A DNA stretch of 24,524 nt, taken from positions 1 to 24,524 of the IMG/VR virus record IMGVR_UViG_3300031718_000043; one strand, given 5' to 3'. Below, one piece after another: positions 212 to 24,524 of this stretch. Origin of the DNA: a virus. Within the stretch, counting starts at the first letter, position 1; each line of letters starts with the position of its first letter. A program made the translations under genes and the position numbers. The notes beneath the pieces are model-generated. The model saw only the letters and a program-made list of their open reading frames with translations. It did no database searches and was not told where the DNA came from.

Positions 212-1027
212 ATGGCTGATAAATATATAGAACAATCATTTGGCTCATTCAACGGCAAATGTAAGCCGCAAGACCCATCATCCCTTATTATGCCTTTTGG
301 GAAGCATAAAGGTTCAACTGTAGCTGAGTTGCTGGCTAAAGATCCTGGATACGCTGAATGGGTTATGTCTCAAGGATGGCTAGCAGAACGGTTTGCCGAG
401 ATTCATGCGGCCATTGCTTCACGGGGAACGCTTTCTGACGACACGCCAGAGCATAACGCTTTGCAAGCGCGGTTTCTGGATGAAAATTTCCGGAATGCTT
501 TTCTAAATTTGCTTGATTTGGACTTTATTAAAATAGCCGATTGTGAGCAGAAGAAGCACTTAGTAAATGACGCGTTCGCCGCTTACATCGAAAAATATAA
601 AAAGGATGTTGGCAGACGCCATGATGAGTATTGGAAATTCACCTTTCAAGAAAAGATTGAGTTCTTGTCTGAGAAAGAAGGATTTGATCTAGAAAGTTAT
701 AAACTTTTTACATCGGTTGAATTTGAGAGAAAATTAGTCGATGTTGTTATCAACTGGGCGCATTCAATAACTCCTGTAAAACCATCCTATAATGAATACT
801 ATTCATTAAAAGTCGAAATTAAGCCAGAAATCGGTGATGACTATCCCTCGATCCTACGGCAGATGCAAAGGGTTGGGTGTAAGTACTTAGTCACGTTAAA
901 ATATAACGGGAAGGGCGTAAGCGAGCCTGTATTAAAGCAGATATTTGAGGCTAGCGGATATTCTCTTGTCTTTGTCCGGGATATTGAGGCTATAATTGCA
1001 GCTTCGCGCGGTGGTAATGACTTATAA
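212..1027 (+). CDS. replication-associated protein with exonuclease X C-terminal-like domain
   Basis: A 271-residue protein. Residues about 24-65 contain MPFGKHKG, followed by a Leu- and Trp-containing helix. This is the signature of the small domain found at the C-terminus of exodeoxyribonuclease X and in many short phage proteins (DUF3820-like). No DEDD exonuclease core is visible, so a nuclease activity of its own is not supported. Residues 75-271 are charged and not recognised. The ATG at 212 was chosen over one at 143 because AAGGGA lies 9 bases upstream, whereas 143 falls inside the predicted -10 box, just before the leader hairpin. The stop TAA overlaps the ATG of the primase-helicase by one base, so the two are probably co-translated and act together in DNA replication or repair. 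Confidence 0.7.
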   Translation: MADKYIEQSFGSFNGKCKPQDPSSLIMPFGKHKGSTVAELLAKDPGYAEWVMSQGWLAERFAEIHAAIASRGTLSDDTPEHNALQARFLDENFRNAFLNLLDLDFIKIADCEQKKHLVNDAFAAYIEKYKKDVGRRHDEYWKFTFQEKIEFLSEKEGFDLESYKLFTSVEFERKLVDVVINWAHSITPVKPSYNEYYSLKVEIKPEIGDDYPSILRQMQRVGCKYLVTLKYNGKGVSEPVLKQIFEASGYSLVFVRDIEAIIAASRGGNDL

Positions 1028-3264
1028 TGGCAACCGCATTTCCTGTTGGCTTGGATGATCTTAATCAATTTGTTGATGCGCTATTCCGTTATGCAGACCC
1101 AGATAGCTACATATCCCTGCGAGCCTTTGATCAGGTAGACCGTACACAGCCGCCTATCTTAATTGAGGCGGTGCGTGTCGAAGAAGGCATGCAGGCTATT
1201 GTTTCAAAAGCGGCCAGGGCAAGCACGCGCGCGGCTAACCAAATGCGTCCGGGGGTTTTTGCTCCCCCGATAGCCACGTTCCGAACAGCTAAGAGCGCTG
1301 CAGCGTCAGACGTCCTAAATGGGGTCGCAATCAGTGTCGAAATTGACGCCGGAGACCCAATTTCTGCCCGGAGGAGGTTGGAACACCTGCTCGGCCCGGT
1401 AACGATTGCCATGCATTCCGGGTCAGAATGGGAAGACCCAAACACAGGCGAAATACACCCCAAAACGCATCTTCATTGGCGCTTAAGTGAACCGACGAGA
1501 ACGCCGGAGGAGTATACCTTACTCCGCCGCGCACGGGATGCTGCCGCTACCCTCGTAGGCGCTGACCGTACAGCTATTCCGCCCAATCATCCCTTGCGTT
1601 GGCCAGGATCGTGGAACCTAAAGGCAGTCCCACGCATTGCCAAGATTTGCGCAGGAAACGTAGCCTCGGAGGTCCACCTATCTGATGCCGTTGAAAAGCT
1701 TGAAGAAGCTATAGAAGCAGCGGGCTTAAAGGTTGCTCGGGAAGCGCATGCGCCCAATACGACGCCAGAGGCCCGCATTGATAAAGTTCAATCAGCCCTT
1801 CTATCTATCCCCAACGAAAATCTTGAATGGGACGAATGGAATAAGATCGGCATGGCCGCGTGGCGTGCAACTGGTGGCTCAACTGAGGGTTTGCTTGCGT
1901 GGTCGGACTGGTCTGCCAAATGCGGCAAGCACAATGACGATGCATGCGCGGCTCGGTGGCAACATTATGCGATAAGCCCTCCAAGCAAAATTGGTGCAGG
2001 GACTATATTTTATTTAGCCGCTCAAAGTGGCTGGGGAAAGGTAGAAAACTACGAACCAATCCAAATGGATGAGAGGGAATCTCCTCCATGGGATATTTAT
2101 TTTGATGGGATGCCCGAAATCGAGCCAAAAAAGGCTCTTGAAAAAACCCGACTCTGGAAAATAGAACAGGGATGGGAAGAGACGGATATTCCCCTGCGCC
2201 CATGGATTGTTCAAGGGTATCTTCTAAGGGGTAGTATTACTGTCGTTTCTGGCCCTGGAAGCGCTGGGAAATCATCCCTTATGGTTGCTTGGGCGCTTAG
2301 TATGGCTCTAGGTGTTCCGTACGGCAATTTTAGGCCAATACGTCCATATAAGGTGTTATCTTATAACGTTGAGGATGACAGGGACGAGCAGTTACGTCGA
2401 ATTTCGGCGTCTTGCCGGCAATTCGATAAATCCCCCTATGATGCCGTTCAAAACCTAAGAATGGTCGGCCCCACCGAAATGGGCACACTTTTGCACCTTG
2501 GGCCTGATGGTCGACTTCTCTTTAATACGCCTGTCATGCATGAGCTTGAAGAGTATATCGACCTCTGGAAACCAGATGTTGTTATGCTTGACCCGTTCGT
2601 TGAGCTTCATTCATCTGAAGAAAACGACAATACTGCCATCAGGCAGGTATTAGCACGATTCCGGTCTTGGGCTGTTCAAATGAAGGTCGCTCTGGTCCTT
2701 TTGCACCATGCCAGAAAGGGCGGTTCGACGCCAGGGGATCCAGATAGCCTACGGGGGGCATCGGCCATTGTGGGGGCAGCGCGTGTCATCCTGACGGTCA
2801 ATACAATGACCGACGAAGAAGCCAGAGACATGCAGATCCCAGTAGACCATAGACGTGATTACTTCCGTCTTGACGGCGGCAAGATGAACTATTCCCGCGT
2901 TCAAAATGCTGATTGGTTCGAACGGGTAGAATATCACCTGGATAACGATGAGGGTGTTGCGGCTGCTGTGCCGTGGACACCTCCGAAGCAGGCGGTCGGG
3001 TTATCTCATGTCATGGCTATTATCACTGAAATAGAGCGTGGAACGGCTGATGGACCTTATTCGCCTAAACTATCAGGTGATAGCCGAAGCATCAAAAAGG
3101 CGATGGAGTTAGTCGGCGTAACGCTGCCAGACGCCCAAAAGGAGCTTCGCGACCTAGTTTTAAAAGACCCTGCCGTTTCCGTTTCTGAGTTTACAGACCC
3201 CACGACGCGGAACAAAAGGCAGGGCTTAAAGACACCAAATGGGCCGCTCGCGAAATGGTCATAA
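1027..3264 (+). CDS. primase-polymerase / RepA-type replicative helicase fusion
   Basis: A 745-residue multidomain replication protein. Residues about 100-200 look like an archaeo-eukaryotic primase (prim-pol) core: VEIDAGDP (E105 and D107 as metal ligands), HLHWRL with His150, and the RWPGSWN block near 191-197. Residues about 250-335 match a PriCT-2 primase C-terminal domain (WDEWNKIGMAAW). Residues about 390-600 form a RecA-fold hexameric helicase of the RepA/AAA_25 type, with Walker A GPGSAGKS (409-416), Walker B VVMLDP (Asp522) and the LLHHARKG motif. The C-terminal 130 residues may be a winged helix or DNA-binding tail. It should prime and unwind phage DNA. The repeat array beginning directly after its stop codon suggests an adjacent origin. 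Domain assignments rest on motifs; the helicase part is the most secure. Confidence 0.88.
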   Translation: MATAFPVGLDDLNQFVDALFRYADPDSYISLRAFDQVDRTQPPILIEAVRVEEGMQAIVSKAARASTRAANQMRPGVFAPPIATFRTAKSAAASDVLNGVAISVEIDAGDPISARRRLEHLLGPVTIAMHSGSEWEDPNTGEIHPKTHLHWRLSEPTRTPEEYTLLRRARDAAATLVGADRTAIPPNHPLRWPGSWNLKAVPRIAKICAGNVASEVHLSDAVEKLEEAIEAAGLKVAREAHAPNTTPEARIDKVQSALLSIPNENLEWDEWNKIGMAAWRATGGSTEGLLAWSDWSAKCGKHNDDACAARWQHYAISPPSKIGAGTIFYLAAQSGWGKVENYEPIQMDERESPPWDIYFDGMPEIEPKKALEKTRLWKIEQGWEETDIPLRPWIVQGYLLRGSITVVSGPGSAGKSSLMVAWALSMALGVPYGNFRPIRPYKVLSYNVEDDRDEQLRRISASCRQFDKSPYDAVQNLRMVGPTEMGTLLHLGPDGRLLFNTPVMHELEEYIDLWKPDVVMLDPFVELHSSEENDNTAIRQVLARFRSWAVQMKVALVLLHHARKGGSTPGDPDSLRGASAIVGAARVILTVNTMTDEEARDMQIPVDHRRDYFRLDGGKMNYSRVQNADWFERVEYHLDNDEGVAAAVPWTPPKQAVGLSHVMAIITEIERGTADGPYSPKLSGDSRSIKKAMELVGVTLPDAQKELRDLVLKDPAVSVSEFTDPTTRNKRQGLKTPNGPLAKWS

Positions 3265-3435
3265 TCCGTGCATGTTCAATGCACCTTCCGTGCGCTGCAC
3301 GGATCTAATTTCCCTAAGGAAAATATACATCCGTGCAGCAGATCATACCCGTTGCAACTTCCGTGCACCTTCCGTGTCAAGGGACCCTAAGAACGGGCAC
3401 GGAAAGCACCCTTTAGAGGGTGCTATTTCCGTGCA
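3265..3435 (+). repeat. iteron-like array of TCCGTGC repeats (candidate origin or operator cluster)
   Basis: Eight copies of a TCCGTGCA-like motif lie in 171 bases. Forward copies start at 3265, 3287, 3330, 3360, 3371 (variant TCCGTGTC) and 3428. Reverse copies lie at 3296-3303 and 3396-3403. Copies 2 and 3 face each other to make a compact palindrome. All share TCCGTG or its near equivalent. The array begins at the stop codon of the primase-helicase. Iteron arrays next to replication initiators are typical of plasmid and some phage origins, so an origin is the leading inference; a repressor-binding cluster is the alternative. Confidence 0.65.
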
Positions 3436-3453
3436 AAGACCGTTCAGGGTCCC
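3381..3453 (+). other. long bulged hairpin, about 30 bp of stem
   Basis: Four nested helices close on a TTAG loop at 3413-3416: GGGACCCT (3381-3388) with AGGGTCCC (3446-3453), GAACGG (3391-3396) with CCGTTC (3440-3445), GCACGGAAA (3397-3405) with TTTCCGTGC (3426-3434), and GCACCCT (3406-3412) with AGGGTGC (3417-3423). Bulges of 2, 5 and 2 bases separate them. All 30 pairs are Watson-Crick. Two of the TCCGTGC repeats form one helix of the stem. It could be a DNA hairpin in an origin or a structured RNA. No U-run follows directly, so a simple terminator is unlikely. Confidence 0.7.
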
Positions 3454-3542: not shown

Positions 3543-3599
3543 AGCGCAAATTGCGCTTTTCTGTTTGACAATAGCGCAATTTGAGCGGTATATACCGCT
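3543..3599 (+). promoter_or_regulatory. sigma70-like promoter overlapped by palindromic operators
   Basis: TTGACA (3565-3570) and TATATA (3589-3594) are 18 bases apart, one of the two best -35 boxes in the window. The -10 lies inside a perfect 16-base palindrome, AGCGGTATATACCGCT (3584-3599). Upstream is a 15-base palindrome AGCGCAAATTGCGCT (3543-3557), with a related half-copy AGCGCAATTTGAGC at 3572-3585 between the boxes. The upstream palindrome is followed by TTTTCTGTTT and could also act as a terminator. The arrangement suggests tight repression of the lipoprotein gene at 3629. Confidence 0.65.
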
Positions 3600-3628
3600 G
3601 CACAAATTGCCCTTAAACAGAGGAAATT

Positions 3629-3853
3629 ATGAAAACGCTCTTAGCAATTACCATTGCAGCCCTACTTTCCGGCTGCACAATCGAGCCTGATTCGTGGTAC
3701 TGTAACCAGAATGGCTACGTTCCCGGCACTGAGTTATACGCACAATGTCTAGAAGACCATGCGCAAGCACGCTTGCAGGCATCGGCCAATTTGCTGCAGC
3801 TTGGGGTGCAGGAAGAGCAGGTTCATTATCTTCAACCACCTCCGCCGCAATGA
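3629..3853 (+). CDS. small phage lipoprotein
   Basis: A 74-residue protein with a clear lipoprotein signal: Met-Lys, a hydrophobic stretch, then LLSGC with Cys16 as the lipidated residue. The mature part is about 59 residues, with two further Cys and a C-terminal PPPPQ tail. Thr17 rather than Asp follows the lipobox Cys, which by the enteric +2 rule favours the outer membrane. AGAGGAAAT precedes the ATG. It is the first gene after the palindrome-covered promoter at 3543-3599. It is not next to a visible Rz-type gene, so an outer-membrane spanin is not supported by context. A superinfection-exclusion or surface-modifying lipoprotein is possible, but the function is unknown. Confidence 0.7.
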   Translation: MKTLLAITIAALLSGCTIEPDSWYCNQNGYVPGTELYAQCLEDHAQARLQASANLLQLGVQEEQVHYLQPPPPQ

Positions 3854-12177: not shown

Positions 12178-12426
12178 ATGACCGGACTTCCGGACTCAGC
12201 AAGCCTAACCAGACGAGAATACGCAATCAAAGTAGCGGGAACGGCATTGGTTCGTGCAAACGGTATTATCCTTCAATGGAAGCCGGAAGAGAACGAGACA
12301 GATGTTCAATTCTCGGAACGCTGCATTAATTTCATTGCGACCGTAACTGTAAATGCATTCCAAGTTGCCATGGATGGCATGCTTGATGAAGTAGCCTTAG
12401 TTAAACAACCGGAGAATAATCAGTGA
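12178..12426 (+). CDS. hypothetical protein
   Basis: An 82-residue protein preceded by GGACGAGAAA. It appears helical, with a hydrophobic C-terminal half (CINFIATVTVNAFQVAMDG) that is too polar to be a confident membrane span. Its TGA overlaps the GTG of the co-chaperonin gene, so they are translationally coupled and may be expressed in fixed ratio. Confidence 0.55.
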   Translation: MTGLPDSASLTRREYAIKVAGTALVRANGIILQWKPEENETDVQFSERCINFIATVTVNAFQVAMDGMLDEVALVKQPENNQ

Positions 12427-12845
12427 CGACGACAGCTATGTTTCATGAGATCGACCCACGCGTGGATTTGCAGAACCGTATTGGGAACATCGATCATATT
12501 AAGTTGCTCCACAATCAGGTTCTGGTGGCGACGTATATCCGTCCCGAGAAGACTAAGGGCGGATTGTACATCCCGCAGGCGTCCCGTGACGAAGATAAGC
12601 ACCAAGGCAAAGTTGGCCTTGTGATTGCCAAGGGTCCGCTTGCCTTTGTGAGCGATAACCAGACTGATTTCCACGGTCAGAATGTCGATCTTGGCGACTG
12701 GATCAGTTACCGCATGTCCGATGGCTGGCAGTTTACGATTAAGGGTAATCCGACATCGGATAATCCTAAGGGTGAATGGCACTGCCGTATGTTGCAGGAT
12801 GTGGATATCAAGGCTGTTATTTCTCATCCGGACGATTTGATGTGA
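12423..12845 (+). CDS. GroES-like (Cpn10) co-chaperonin
   Basis: A 140-residue protein that matches the GroES fold in order. It opens with HNQVLVATYIRPEKTKGG (30-47), equivalent to the first strand and mobile loop of GroES. GGLYIP (46-51) occupies the place of the GroEL-binding hydrophobic tripeptide. Then come GKVGLVIAKG, VDLGDWISY (the conserved 'GD-V-Y' strand) and a C-terminal DVDIKAVI strand. It is longer than bacterial GroES (about 97 residues), with an N-terminal extension and an insertion near 72-85, as in phage co-chaperonins such as T4 gp31. It likely caps the host GroEL to fold a phage structural protein, and it sits next to the scaffold. GTG start in GTGA. Confidence 0.82.
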   Translation: MTTTAMFHEIDPRVDLQNRIGNIDHIKLLHNQVLVATYIRPEKTKGGLYIPQASRDEDKHQGKVGLVIAKGPLAFVSDNQTDFHGQNVDLGDWISYRMSDGWQFTIKGNPTSDNPKGEWHCRMLQDVDIKAVISHPDDLM

Positions 12846-19239: not shown

Positions 19240-19320
19240 GGTTGTAGCAAATCTTAGTAGCCAAGGGTTTTTACGGTCTAATGCAATTTTCGACACCAGC
19301 TTCTATTGTGCGTTCTCCGT

Positions 19321-19347
19321 TGTGTGTGGTAAAGAATACCGCACATA
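19321..19347 (+). promoter_or_regulatory. hairpin just upstream of the endonuclease ribosome binding site
   Basis: GTGTGGTA (19324-19331) pairs with TACCGCAC (19337-19344) with one G-U pair and a five-base loop AAGAA. Three more pairs, one of them a G-U wobble, extend the stem to 19321/19347. It ends a few bases before AGAAGG, the ribosome binding site for the gene at 19365, in the 125-base gap after the capsid gene. It may limit read-through or translation of the endonuclease. Confidence 0.5.
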
Positions 19348-19364
19348 ACGAGAAGGTATGCGAA

Positions 19365-20450
19365 ATGAAAGAGAGTGGGCTTACTGTCGAGAGGATTCGA
19401 AATGTTCTCGACTACAACCCAGAAACTGGCGCTTTAAAGTGGCGGATTGCCTTGTCGCGTCGGACTTCTGTTGGTTCTGAGGCTGGTGTTAAGGGGACAA
19501 ATGGACGCCGTTATGTCCAAGTGCTTGGCGAAAAGTTGCTTGCTCATAGATTGATTTGGTTTTACGTCCATGGCGTTTGGCCGACAGCCAATATATCGCC
19601 CAAAAATGGAGATTATGATGATCTCCGTTTGGAAAATCTCCGTGAACAATCTCTTTCAGAGACTTCGTTTAAGGGATTTCGCGCAACTTCCAATAAGAGC
19701 GGCATAAAGGGCGTAAGTTGGAGTTCAAACAAGAATAGATGGCTTGCAGTGATTACGCGGGACTATCGCAGATATCATATCGGATACTTTATCACGAAAG
19801 AAGAAGCCGCAGCCGCTTATGAGGCGGCAAACCTTGAATCTCCGGATAAGCGGTATGCGAATGTTCGTCCTTATAGGAAGCTAAAATCGCGTAAACACCT
19901 ATGGGGAATTTGGAGCCAGTTGATATCTGAAGGAAACAAAACGGCATGGCTCACATATGATGAGTTTGCTATGGATATCAAAGAGGTTCCCTCAGCTAAA
20001 TCCACGATCATAGCCAAGGATAAAAGCCTTCCAATTGGCCCAAACAATTGGGAGATTATGGTGCCCGTTAGTTCTAGCCTGAGGTATTCTGAAAATAAAA
20101 AGTATCGTGAAAATAATCCTGATAAATGCAGGGCATATGAATTAAAACGTGATTTTGGTATCACTATCAGTCAATATGAGGAAATGCTGTCTGCGCAAGA
20201 TGGCTGTTGTGCTGTTTGCGAGCGCCCGGAACGTGTTATGCGTGGTGATAAAGTAAAGCGTCTTGCGGTTGATCACGATCACACGACCGGAAAAATTCGT
20301 GGACTTCTTTGTTCTCACTGCAACCAAGCAATTGGGAAATTTGAGGATAATCCTGTTTTTATGAACAGGGCGTCGAATTATGTTATTAAGCACCGGGAAG
20401 ATGAGAAGTCTCTTCCTAACAACGTCGTCAAACTGAAGGAGGCCCGCTAA
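19365..20450 (+). CDS. composite homing-type endonuclease: HNH-like + AP2 + endonuclease VII
   Basis: A 361-residue protein of three known modules. Residues about 8-95 resemble HNH_3 (LDYNPETGALKW, AHRLIWFYVHGVWP, DLRLENLR), but the usual IDHINGD reads ISPKNGD (77-83), losing the Asp and catalytic His. Residues about 111-157 are an AP2 DNA-binding domain (SGIKGVSWSSNKNRWLA). Residues about 178-234 end with IGPNNWE, a block seen in phage HNH proteins. Residues about 244-332 match recombination endonuclease VII: zinc ligands C282/C285 and C316/C319, the DHDH motif (303-306) and Asn320. ATG 19365 follows AGAAGG. It is a free-standing selfish gene inserted after the capsid gene; its TAA overlaps the next ATG. 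Confidence 0.85.
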   Translation: MKESGLTVERIRNVLDYNPETGALKWRIALSRRTSVGSEAGVKGTNGRRYVQVLGEKLLAHRLIWFYVHGVWPTANISPKNGDYDDLRLENLREQSLSETSFKGFRATSNKSGIKGVSWSSNKNRWLAVITRDYRRYHIGYFITKEEAAAAYEAANLESPDKRYANVRPYRKLKSRKHLWGIWSQLISEGNKTAWLTYDEFAMDIKEVPSAKSTIIAKDKSLPIGPNNWEIMVPVSSSLRYSENKKYRENNPDKCRAYELKRDFGITISQYEEMLSAQDGCCAVCERPERVMRGDKVKRLAVDHDHTTGKIRGLLCSHCNQAIGKFEDNPVFMNRASNYVIKHREDEKSLPNNVVKLKEAR

Positions 20451-23421: not shown

Positions 23422-24524
23422 TGCCAAATTTCACGAATTTCCCGGCTCCAAATCTTCCCTTAACTGGCACGGAAGCTCTGATGATTGCGCAGGCCCAGAA
23501 TGGGCAACTTGTGACCTGCACCGCTACGGTTGCGGAGATCGGCACAGGCGCGATTGGTGGGGCGCTATCATCGCCTCCACCGATTGGGAACGTGACGCCG
23601 AACACGGGGGCGTTCACAACTCTTGATGCTCAAACGATGTCTGTTTCCGGGAATGAAACAGTTGATGGAACACTAAACGTTGTTGGCAATACGACGGTAA
23701 ATAATCTCACGGTTGAAGGCACATTCACCACTCCTGTTCCTGTTCTCCCCGCACAAGCTGCGAATACGTTCTTTGCAGGTCCTGCGTCTGATGGCTCAGA
23801 ACCTCCTGCATTTCGAGATATTGTGTCTGCCGATATTAACAGCGCGCTTACGACTCCTGGGCCAATCGGGTCAGGATCTCCAAATGTCGGTGAATTCACA
23901 ACTGTTTCTGCTTCAAGCGAAATTACAGCAAACGGTGTTGGAACCGGCCTAAATGTTGTGAACAATGCGGCTATAGGTGGAAATTTATCTGTTACGGGGA
24001 ATTCTGCACTATCAACTGTAACTTCATCTGGGGAAATTGCAGCGAACGGCGCAGGAACGGGTTTGAATGTGGTCAATAATGCCTCTATTGGAGGGGCGTT
24101 GACTGTATCTGGCGAGCTTGAGGCGAATGGCGCGGGAACGGGGATAGCTGTTGCGAATAATGCAACTGTCGGTGGGACGCTTAGCGTAACTGGCGCATCT
24201 ACTTTGGAAAATGTAACGGTTGGCGGAACCTTAGGGGTAACTGGAACCTCTGTTTTGTCTGGAGAAGTTTTAGCAACAGCTTCTGGGACGGGGTTATCTG
24301 TTGCCAACAATACTACAATTGGGGGAACGCTAGGAGTATCTGGGGCATCTACTCTTGCTTCTGTAGTGGTTACGGGAATCTCCACGCTTTCCACTGTAAA
24401 TGCATCTGGTGAAATTACTGCAAATGGTGCTGGAACTGGATTGGCCGTTACTAACAACGCGACCGTTGGTGGGACTTTAGATGTAACTGGAACTTCTATA
24501 CTTGGCGTTGTTAACGCATCCGGT
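23421..24524 (+). CDS. tail fibre / spike protein, 3' end outside the window
   Basis: An open frame of at least 368 codons with no stop before the right edge, starting at ATG in TGATG. Residues 1-110 resemble the start of other phage fibres (PNLPLTGTEALMIAQAQNGQ, then GNVTPNTGAFTTLDAQ). From about residue 163 it consists of repeats with the pattern SGEITANGAGTGLxVxNNA, [IV]GG-x-L-x-V-[TS]G. Such Gly/Thr/Asn-rich repeats build trimeric beta fibres that bind the host surface. No signal peptide is present, in contrast to the fibre-like protein at 15789. The receptor-binding tip would lie beyond the window. Confidence 0.8.
   Translation, partial: MPNFTNFPAPNLPLTGTEALMIAQAQNGQLVTCTATVAEIGTGAIGGALSSPPPIGNVTPNTGAFTTLDAQTMSVSGNETVDGTLNVVGNTTVNNLTVEGTFTTPVPVLPAQAANTFFAGPASDGSEPPAFRDIVSADINSALTTPGPIGSGSPNVGEFTTVSASSEITANGVGTGLNVVNNAAIGGNLSVTGNSALSTVTSSGEIAANGAGTGLNVVNNASIGGALTVSGELEANGAGTGIAVANNATVGGTLSVTGASTLENVTVGGTLGVTGTSVLSGEVLATASGTGLSVANNTTIGGTLGVSGASTLASVVVTGISTLSTVNASGEITANGAGTGLAVTNNATVGGTLDVTGTSILGVVNASG
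23910..24524 (+). repeat. diverged tandem repeats in the fibre gene
   Basis: About five units of roughly 30-45 codons share ANGxGTG, NNA or NNT, and GG-x-L-x-V-[TS]G. They begin near 23910, 24018, 24102, 24270 and 24399. The protein pattern is well kept while third codon positions differ widely, so the repeats are old or recombining rather than recently duplicated. The repeats also create a long open frame on the minus strand (23630-24457), which I regard as a shadow. Confidence 0.7.

Follow-up and report, generated by a model that had tools for sequence, protein, structure and literature searches.

The window analysed here is the whole stretch of 24,524 nucleotides of a viral record (IMGVR_UViG_3300031718_000043). 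It encodes a 745-residue primase-helicase, and the gene is followed directly by a non-coding array of short repeats at 3265-3435 (Table 1). An earlier note, made from the letters alone, had described eight TCCGTGC-type repeats, two of them inverted and six forward, in an array that begins at the stop codon of the helicase. Both points were confirmed: seven copies of TCCGTGC or GCACGGA are exact (five forward, two inverted), an eighth, forward copy has one mismatch, and the first base 3' of the reading frame is 3265. Elsewhere in the window there is one further exact copy, at 23467. Within 250 b after the helicase stop, the commonest 7-mer occurs 7 times compared with 1.9 +/- 0.35 times in shuffled sequences, none of 60 shuffles reaching 7. 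A DNA similarity search of the array against known phages gave no significant match, and literature searches found no paper describing the TCCGTGC array.

Table 1. Coordinates of the helicase gene, its proposed reading domain, the repeats and the hairpins in the window
Feature	Position	Strand	Remarks
Primase-helicase gene, 745 aa	1027..3264	+	PriCT_2 (residues 255-331), RepA-type AAA_25 helicase (382-566)
C-terminal winged-helix-like domain, proposed repeat reader	codons 3001..3231 (residues 659-735)	+	AF2; tail identity predicts repeat
Residue 729 (Asn), proposed specificity residue, predicted wing	codon 3211..3213	+	strongest association with repeat positions 4 and 5 among helicase columns
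Repeat 1, TCCGTGC	3265..3271	+	exact copy
Repeat 2, TCCGTGC	3287..3293	+	exact copy
Hairpin 1 (HP1)	3294..3339		repeats in arms, around TTTCCCTAAGGAAA (3309-3322)
Repeat 3, inverted	3297..3303	-	exact copy
Repeat 4, TCCGTGC	3330..3336	+	exact copy
Repeat 5, TCCGTGC	3360..3366	+	exact copy
Repeat 6, variant TCCGTGT	3371..3377	+	one mismatch; 11 b after repeat 5
Hairpin 2 (HP2)	3381..3453		tip GCACCCTTTAGAGGGTGC (3406-3423); fold -51.2 kcal/mol, z -8.75
Repeat 7, inverted	3397..3403	-	exact copy; left arm of HP2
Repeat 8, TCCGTGC	3428..3434	+	exact copy; right arm of HP2

The product of 1027..3264 matches AAA_25 (1.5e-33) and PriCT_2 (1.4e-16) in Pfam. Its best match of solved structure, by sequence as well as fold, is the hexameric helicase RepA of plasmid RSF1010 (phmmer, 1g8y, 8e-11; Foldseek, 1nlf, E 4.5e-12, TMt 0.79). 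The protein had been called a prim-pol/RepA-type helicase, of which the RepA-type part stands, whereas the N-terminal 250 residues match no Pfam primase: Prim-Pol and RepB_primase gave no match in the product, PriCT_2 is its one primase-related match, and D5_N and DUF927 were likewise sought without a match. Homologues carry Prim-Pol (L092, L117) or a weak RepB_primase match (L086) at the N-terminus, some consist of the helicase only, and three plasmids encode a separate Toprim protein upstream. Given these differences at the N-terminus, the primase partner varies; what recurs is the pair of helicase and array. At the other end of the chain, AF2 predicts helices at 659-671, 689-695 and 701-713 and strands at 718-723 and 730-735 (pLDDT about 85-94, mostly >90). 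The predicted topology of three helices and a beta hairpin is that of a winged helix; the isolated C-terminal domain had no significant Foldseek match in the PDB.

Arrays behind related helicases

Pattern scans built on a single helicase protein gave nothing, and an alignment of six sequences worked. Homologues came from phage-plasmids, viral contigs and genomes, mostly of Alphaproteobacteria, the nearest being from Gluconobacter (47%). Copies of any 7-mer were counted on both strands of the gap behind each helicase gene, with the gaps behind other ORFs at these loci as controls. At least four copies of one 7-mer were found in 84/146 helicase gaps (57%) and in 14/1137 control gaps (1.2%), and at least five in 64 and 3 of these, respectively. 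A CCC-AT-GGG palindrome was present in 61/147 helicase gaps versus 3/1137 control gaps. Directly 3' of the helicase stop, even distant homologues have a CCCTATAGGG- or CCCTATAGGGG-like palindrome flanked by short forward and inverted repeats. In the 118 arrays called, the median distance from the stop codon to the first repeat is 3 b, both orientations occur in 116, and the usual spacing of adjacent copies on one strand is 8-11 b; two repeat sets are visible, and the largest gap has 41% AT compared with a locus average of 38%. By strict count, the array is absent in about 40% of homologues (in some it is shifted or degenerate), and none adjoins the helicase gene of Rhizobium phage RHph_X2_26. 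At locus L108, a 250-b stretch with 15 copies of the 7-mer CCAGCTC lies outside the helicase gap, ~2.5 kb past the helicase stop.

The repeats themselves change from element to element. There are 34 distinct 7-mers in 59 elements, and copies within one element are alike; such uniformity within and difference between elements is expected for one sequence-specific reader. Of the nearest relatives, L091 keeps TCCGTGC (TTCCGTGC, as in the window) and Gluconobacter L169 has TCCATGC, while other homologues have GGTGGAGCA, GGTGACGCA, TTTTACGCA and more. Conservation in relatives with the same helicase, on which the earlier note had staked its reading, was thus found for the layout but not for the repeat sequence, which usually differs between elements.

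A small terminase gene begins ~0.7 kb downstream (4127), as might suit a packaging site (pac/cos). This explanation is extremely unlikely: arrays follow the helicase regardless of the next gene, phage-plasmid relatives have the array with no small terminase gene beside it, and three phages (L003-L005) share the terminase (64-75% identical to that of the window) yet contain no homologue of the window helicase. Their replication module differs, and they were therefore dropped as comparators; the module has evidently been exchanged between related phages. On reading, the module of L004 consists of primpol-like and VirE-type helicase genes.

Candidate reader of the repeats

Repeats were oriented by a shared GC(A) end, of which GC was demanded by the caller and the following A (74%) was free, and loosely fit xTG[4][5]GCA (xTGnnGCA-like). 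Identity over helicase residues 601-745 predicted repeat similarity when identity over 381-600 was controlled for (partial Mantel 0.335, 0/1000 permutations); in the reverse test, the AAA core (381-600) controlling for the tail gave no prediction (-0.06). Individual cases illustrate this. L117 is 95-98% identical to L120, L127 and L132 in the AAA region and 34-39% in the tail, and its repeats are unrelated to theirs; L167 and L232 share 86% of the ATPase core and 25% of the tail. By sequence comparison, the repeat tracks the winged-helix-like C-terminal domain predicted for the helicase, not its ATPase core.

In plain mutual information over all repeat positions, position 1 was dominated by lineage and singled out no helicase column. 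Repeat positions 4 (z 7.8, next column 4.5) and 5 (z 8.6, next 6.7) were each best associated with residue 729, on the turn that leads into the second strand of the predicted wing, itself an alignment-poor region. In 55 non-overlapping nearest (sister) pairs, a design that lessens shared ancestry and does not eliminate it, residue 729 was the best of 308 columns (p 2.5e-6), followed by 725 in the same wing. Positions 4-5 were kept in 13/19 pairs with the same residue 729 and changed in 32/34 pairs with different residues. A test set comprised 33 new elements whose helicases were <85% identical to the first set; its scans took in the last 60 b of the gene, an overlap that the first set lacked. 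In it, K/R at 729 went with G at position 4 in 19/19 and A/C at position 5 in 18/19, E/D with C at position 4 in 4/4, H with C at position 5 in 2/2, and M/N with G at position 5 in 6/6. The window helicase has N729; elements of that class usually show G at position 5, but the window repeat has T.

Because tail and array are adjacent, their joint exchange by recombination could yield part of the tail-repeat correlation; it would not account for the signal at the single column 729. A broader proposal is that RepA-type helicases with their own interchangeable origin-reading domain form a widespread class of phage replicon, in which a wing residue largely sets two iteron bases and specificity is predictable from the protein. 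We regard this proposal as evenly balanced between true and false. The candidate code for positions 4-5 shares that standing: K/R may specify GA/GC, E CG/CT, M TG/GG and H NC. These residue-729 rules would amount to a directly testable protein-DNA recognition code, and would explain why related phages have different iterons. If two bases depend largely on one wing residue, origin specificity in the proposed class could diversify quickly, probably as an escape from incompatibility or cross-replication.

Folding of the array

The array strand folds with -90.3 kcal/mol (z -8.8) into two hairpins, both missed by the earlier note. HP1 has a homologue in L091 and L169, namely their CCCTATAGGGG block. 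Since TCCGTGC copies sit in the two hairpins, part of the repeat pattern consists of hairpin arms; the tandem same-strand copies at 3360 and 3371 are not accounted for by hairpin pairing. A rival reading is a stem-loop origin recognised by structure, or a single-strand initiation site, in which the repeats would be arms and nothing else. The two hairpins are very stable and folds are strong in relatives also (mean -87.7 kcal/mol per 200 nt in helicase gaps vs -73.6 in control gaps), and plasmid pRN1 cannot do without the stem-loop behind orf904, the sequence of which is not conserved (PMC4234260). We nevertheless consider such an origin unlikely, as direct tandem copies outside the hairpins carry the same element-specific sequence, the repeat bases covary with one column of the protein alignment, and a counterpart of HP2 was sought and not found in L091 and L169, the nearest relatives.

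The high folding energy would also fit an RNA element of the helicase mRNA, be it a terminator, an attenuator or a 3'-UTR structure, and the lack of an Rfam family match for the array region is listed on the same side. This is very unlikely, since terminator-like sites lie within or after only 3 of 118 called arrays, covariation of repeat and protein does not suit an RNA role, and at L167 an intrinsic terminator separates helicase gene and array, an arrangement that on reading recurs at L240. With about 120 b and 390 b, respectively, and a terminator between helicase stop and array, these two loci show that the array can sit apart from the gene. The two arrays (L167 6200-6410, L240 6480-6690) are near-identical TCCGTGCA arrays with a CCCCCCTTTAGGGGGG core.

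Relation to described replicons

The earlier statement that the array could not be matched to a described phage origin was only partly right, as the layout is shared with the PICI/SaPI replicon and pRN1 (PMC7581432, PMC6092414, PMC4234260). As here, iterons lie immediately 3' of the initiator-helicase gene in PICI/SaPI (Pri-Rep-ori; SaPIbov1, SaPI5, EcCICFT073) and SCCmec Cch2. The C-terminal domain of SaPI Rep helicases recognises iterons directly downstream of their own gene, and Cch2 shows the same recognition in vitro (PMC7581432); here, repeat and C-terminal domain covary strongly. PICI origins have two iteron sets flanking a presumed melting site (PMC6092414), an AT-rich stretch, whereas the centre of the present arrays is often a CCCTATAGGG palindrome. 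The PICI/SaPI and Cch2 helicases are of the D5_N/DUF927 type and belong to satellites and islands (PMC7581432); those described here are RecA-fold, RepA-type (AAA_25) enzymes and, unlike PICI/SaPI, are hosted by phages, prophages and phage-plasmids, mostly alphaproteobacterial. If the origin reading holds, such similarity of layout between different helicase families would point to convergence, or else to an origin-reading domain that has been exchanged.

In pRN1 (ORF904) and Bordetella phage BIP-1/BPP-1, too, a structured origin lies 3' of the gene for a primase-helicase, the stem-loop of BIP-1 being a prediction; for pRN1 the description includes a stem-loop but no iterons, and in vitro assays detected no specific binding (PMC4234260). 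The BPP-1 protein has PriCT_2 as here, but it matches D5_N, unlike the product of 1027..3264. The pRN1/BPP-1 helicase is of the D5_N/SF3 type, and because the present helicase is RepA-type, the family, which would work much as these do, is a member of neither the PICI/SaPI nor the pRN1 type. In BPP-1 (L249 1100-1220), tandem TTTGCCTCG 9-mers are mirrored around a palindrome ~450 b behind the primase gene, beyond antisense bbp28; this iteron-like candidate is not among the repeats mentioned in the pRN1 paper (PMC4234260).

The RepA helicase fold is common to RSF1010, whose oriV has iterons and ssi hairpins (PMC4234260). There a separate RepC reads the iterons, while here helicase and putative reader are one chain. 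The helicase of the satellite P4 alpha protein, which works with ori/crr, belongs to a different family than the RepA type. Alpha joins primase, helicase and origin binder in one chain, with a winged helix reading repeats, and its primase is Toprim-type, unlike here (PMC4234260). What is new is the spread of the layout with a RepA-type helicase through phages, prophages and phage-plasmids, the change of repeats element by element, and a candidate recognition code.

Putative origin function

The proposal that the array is an iteron origin recognised by this helicase is supported by comparison, in that the array is almost confined to this helicase family and the repeat appears to track the C-terminal domain. 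GC skew, suggested as a check, showed no origin-like switch in the window or when averaged over loci with arrays. We consider that 3265-3453 is probably the phage replication origin, with TCCGTGC as the iterons read by the upstream primase-helicase (probability roughly 0.8). What the data establish is a repeat array placed behind the gene, found again with other sequences in homologues, and repeat bases that correlate with the C-terminal domain and with residue 729; that the protein binds, melts and primes there, and that 3265-3453 acts as an origin, is what we infer. The primase-helicase would bind the iterons via its own C-terminal winged-helix-like domain and load itself as a RepA-type hexamer at the 3' end of its own gene. 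The same protein could then open the duplex where repeats flank the palindrome or hairpin, and prime synthesis at that site.

Evidence of binding by itself cannot tell an origin from a control site, and the helicase might bind the array for copy-number or incompatibility control, as at P4 crr, or for autoregulation, while initiation takes place elsewhere. We find this quite unlikely: an array 3' of the gene is ill-suited to promoter autoregulation, a palindrome recurs within the array, and the same position is the origin in PICI/SaPI replicons (PMC6092414, PMC7581432). If the origin reading is true, sequence could be used to locate origins in hundreds of phages and phage-plasmids, most of them from Alphaproteobacteria.

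Other features of the window

At 3543-3600, GCGCAAATTGCGC-type palindromes overlap a TTGACA..TATAT stretch ahead of a small lipoprotein-like ORF (3629-3853), and look like a repressor-controlled promoter separate from the array. The product of 12423-12845 is a small protein weakly similar to phage GroES-like co-chaperonins (PHROG 3188, 1.2e-9). Between structural genes, 19281-20450 encodes a protein that fuses HNH endonuclease-like and endonuclease VII-like halves, with PHROG matches to both.
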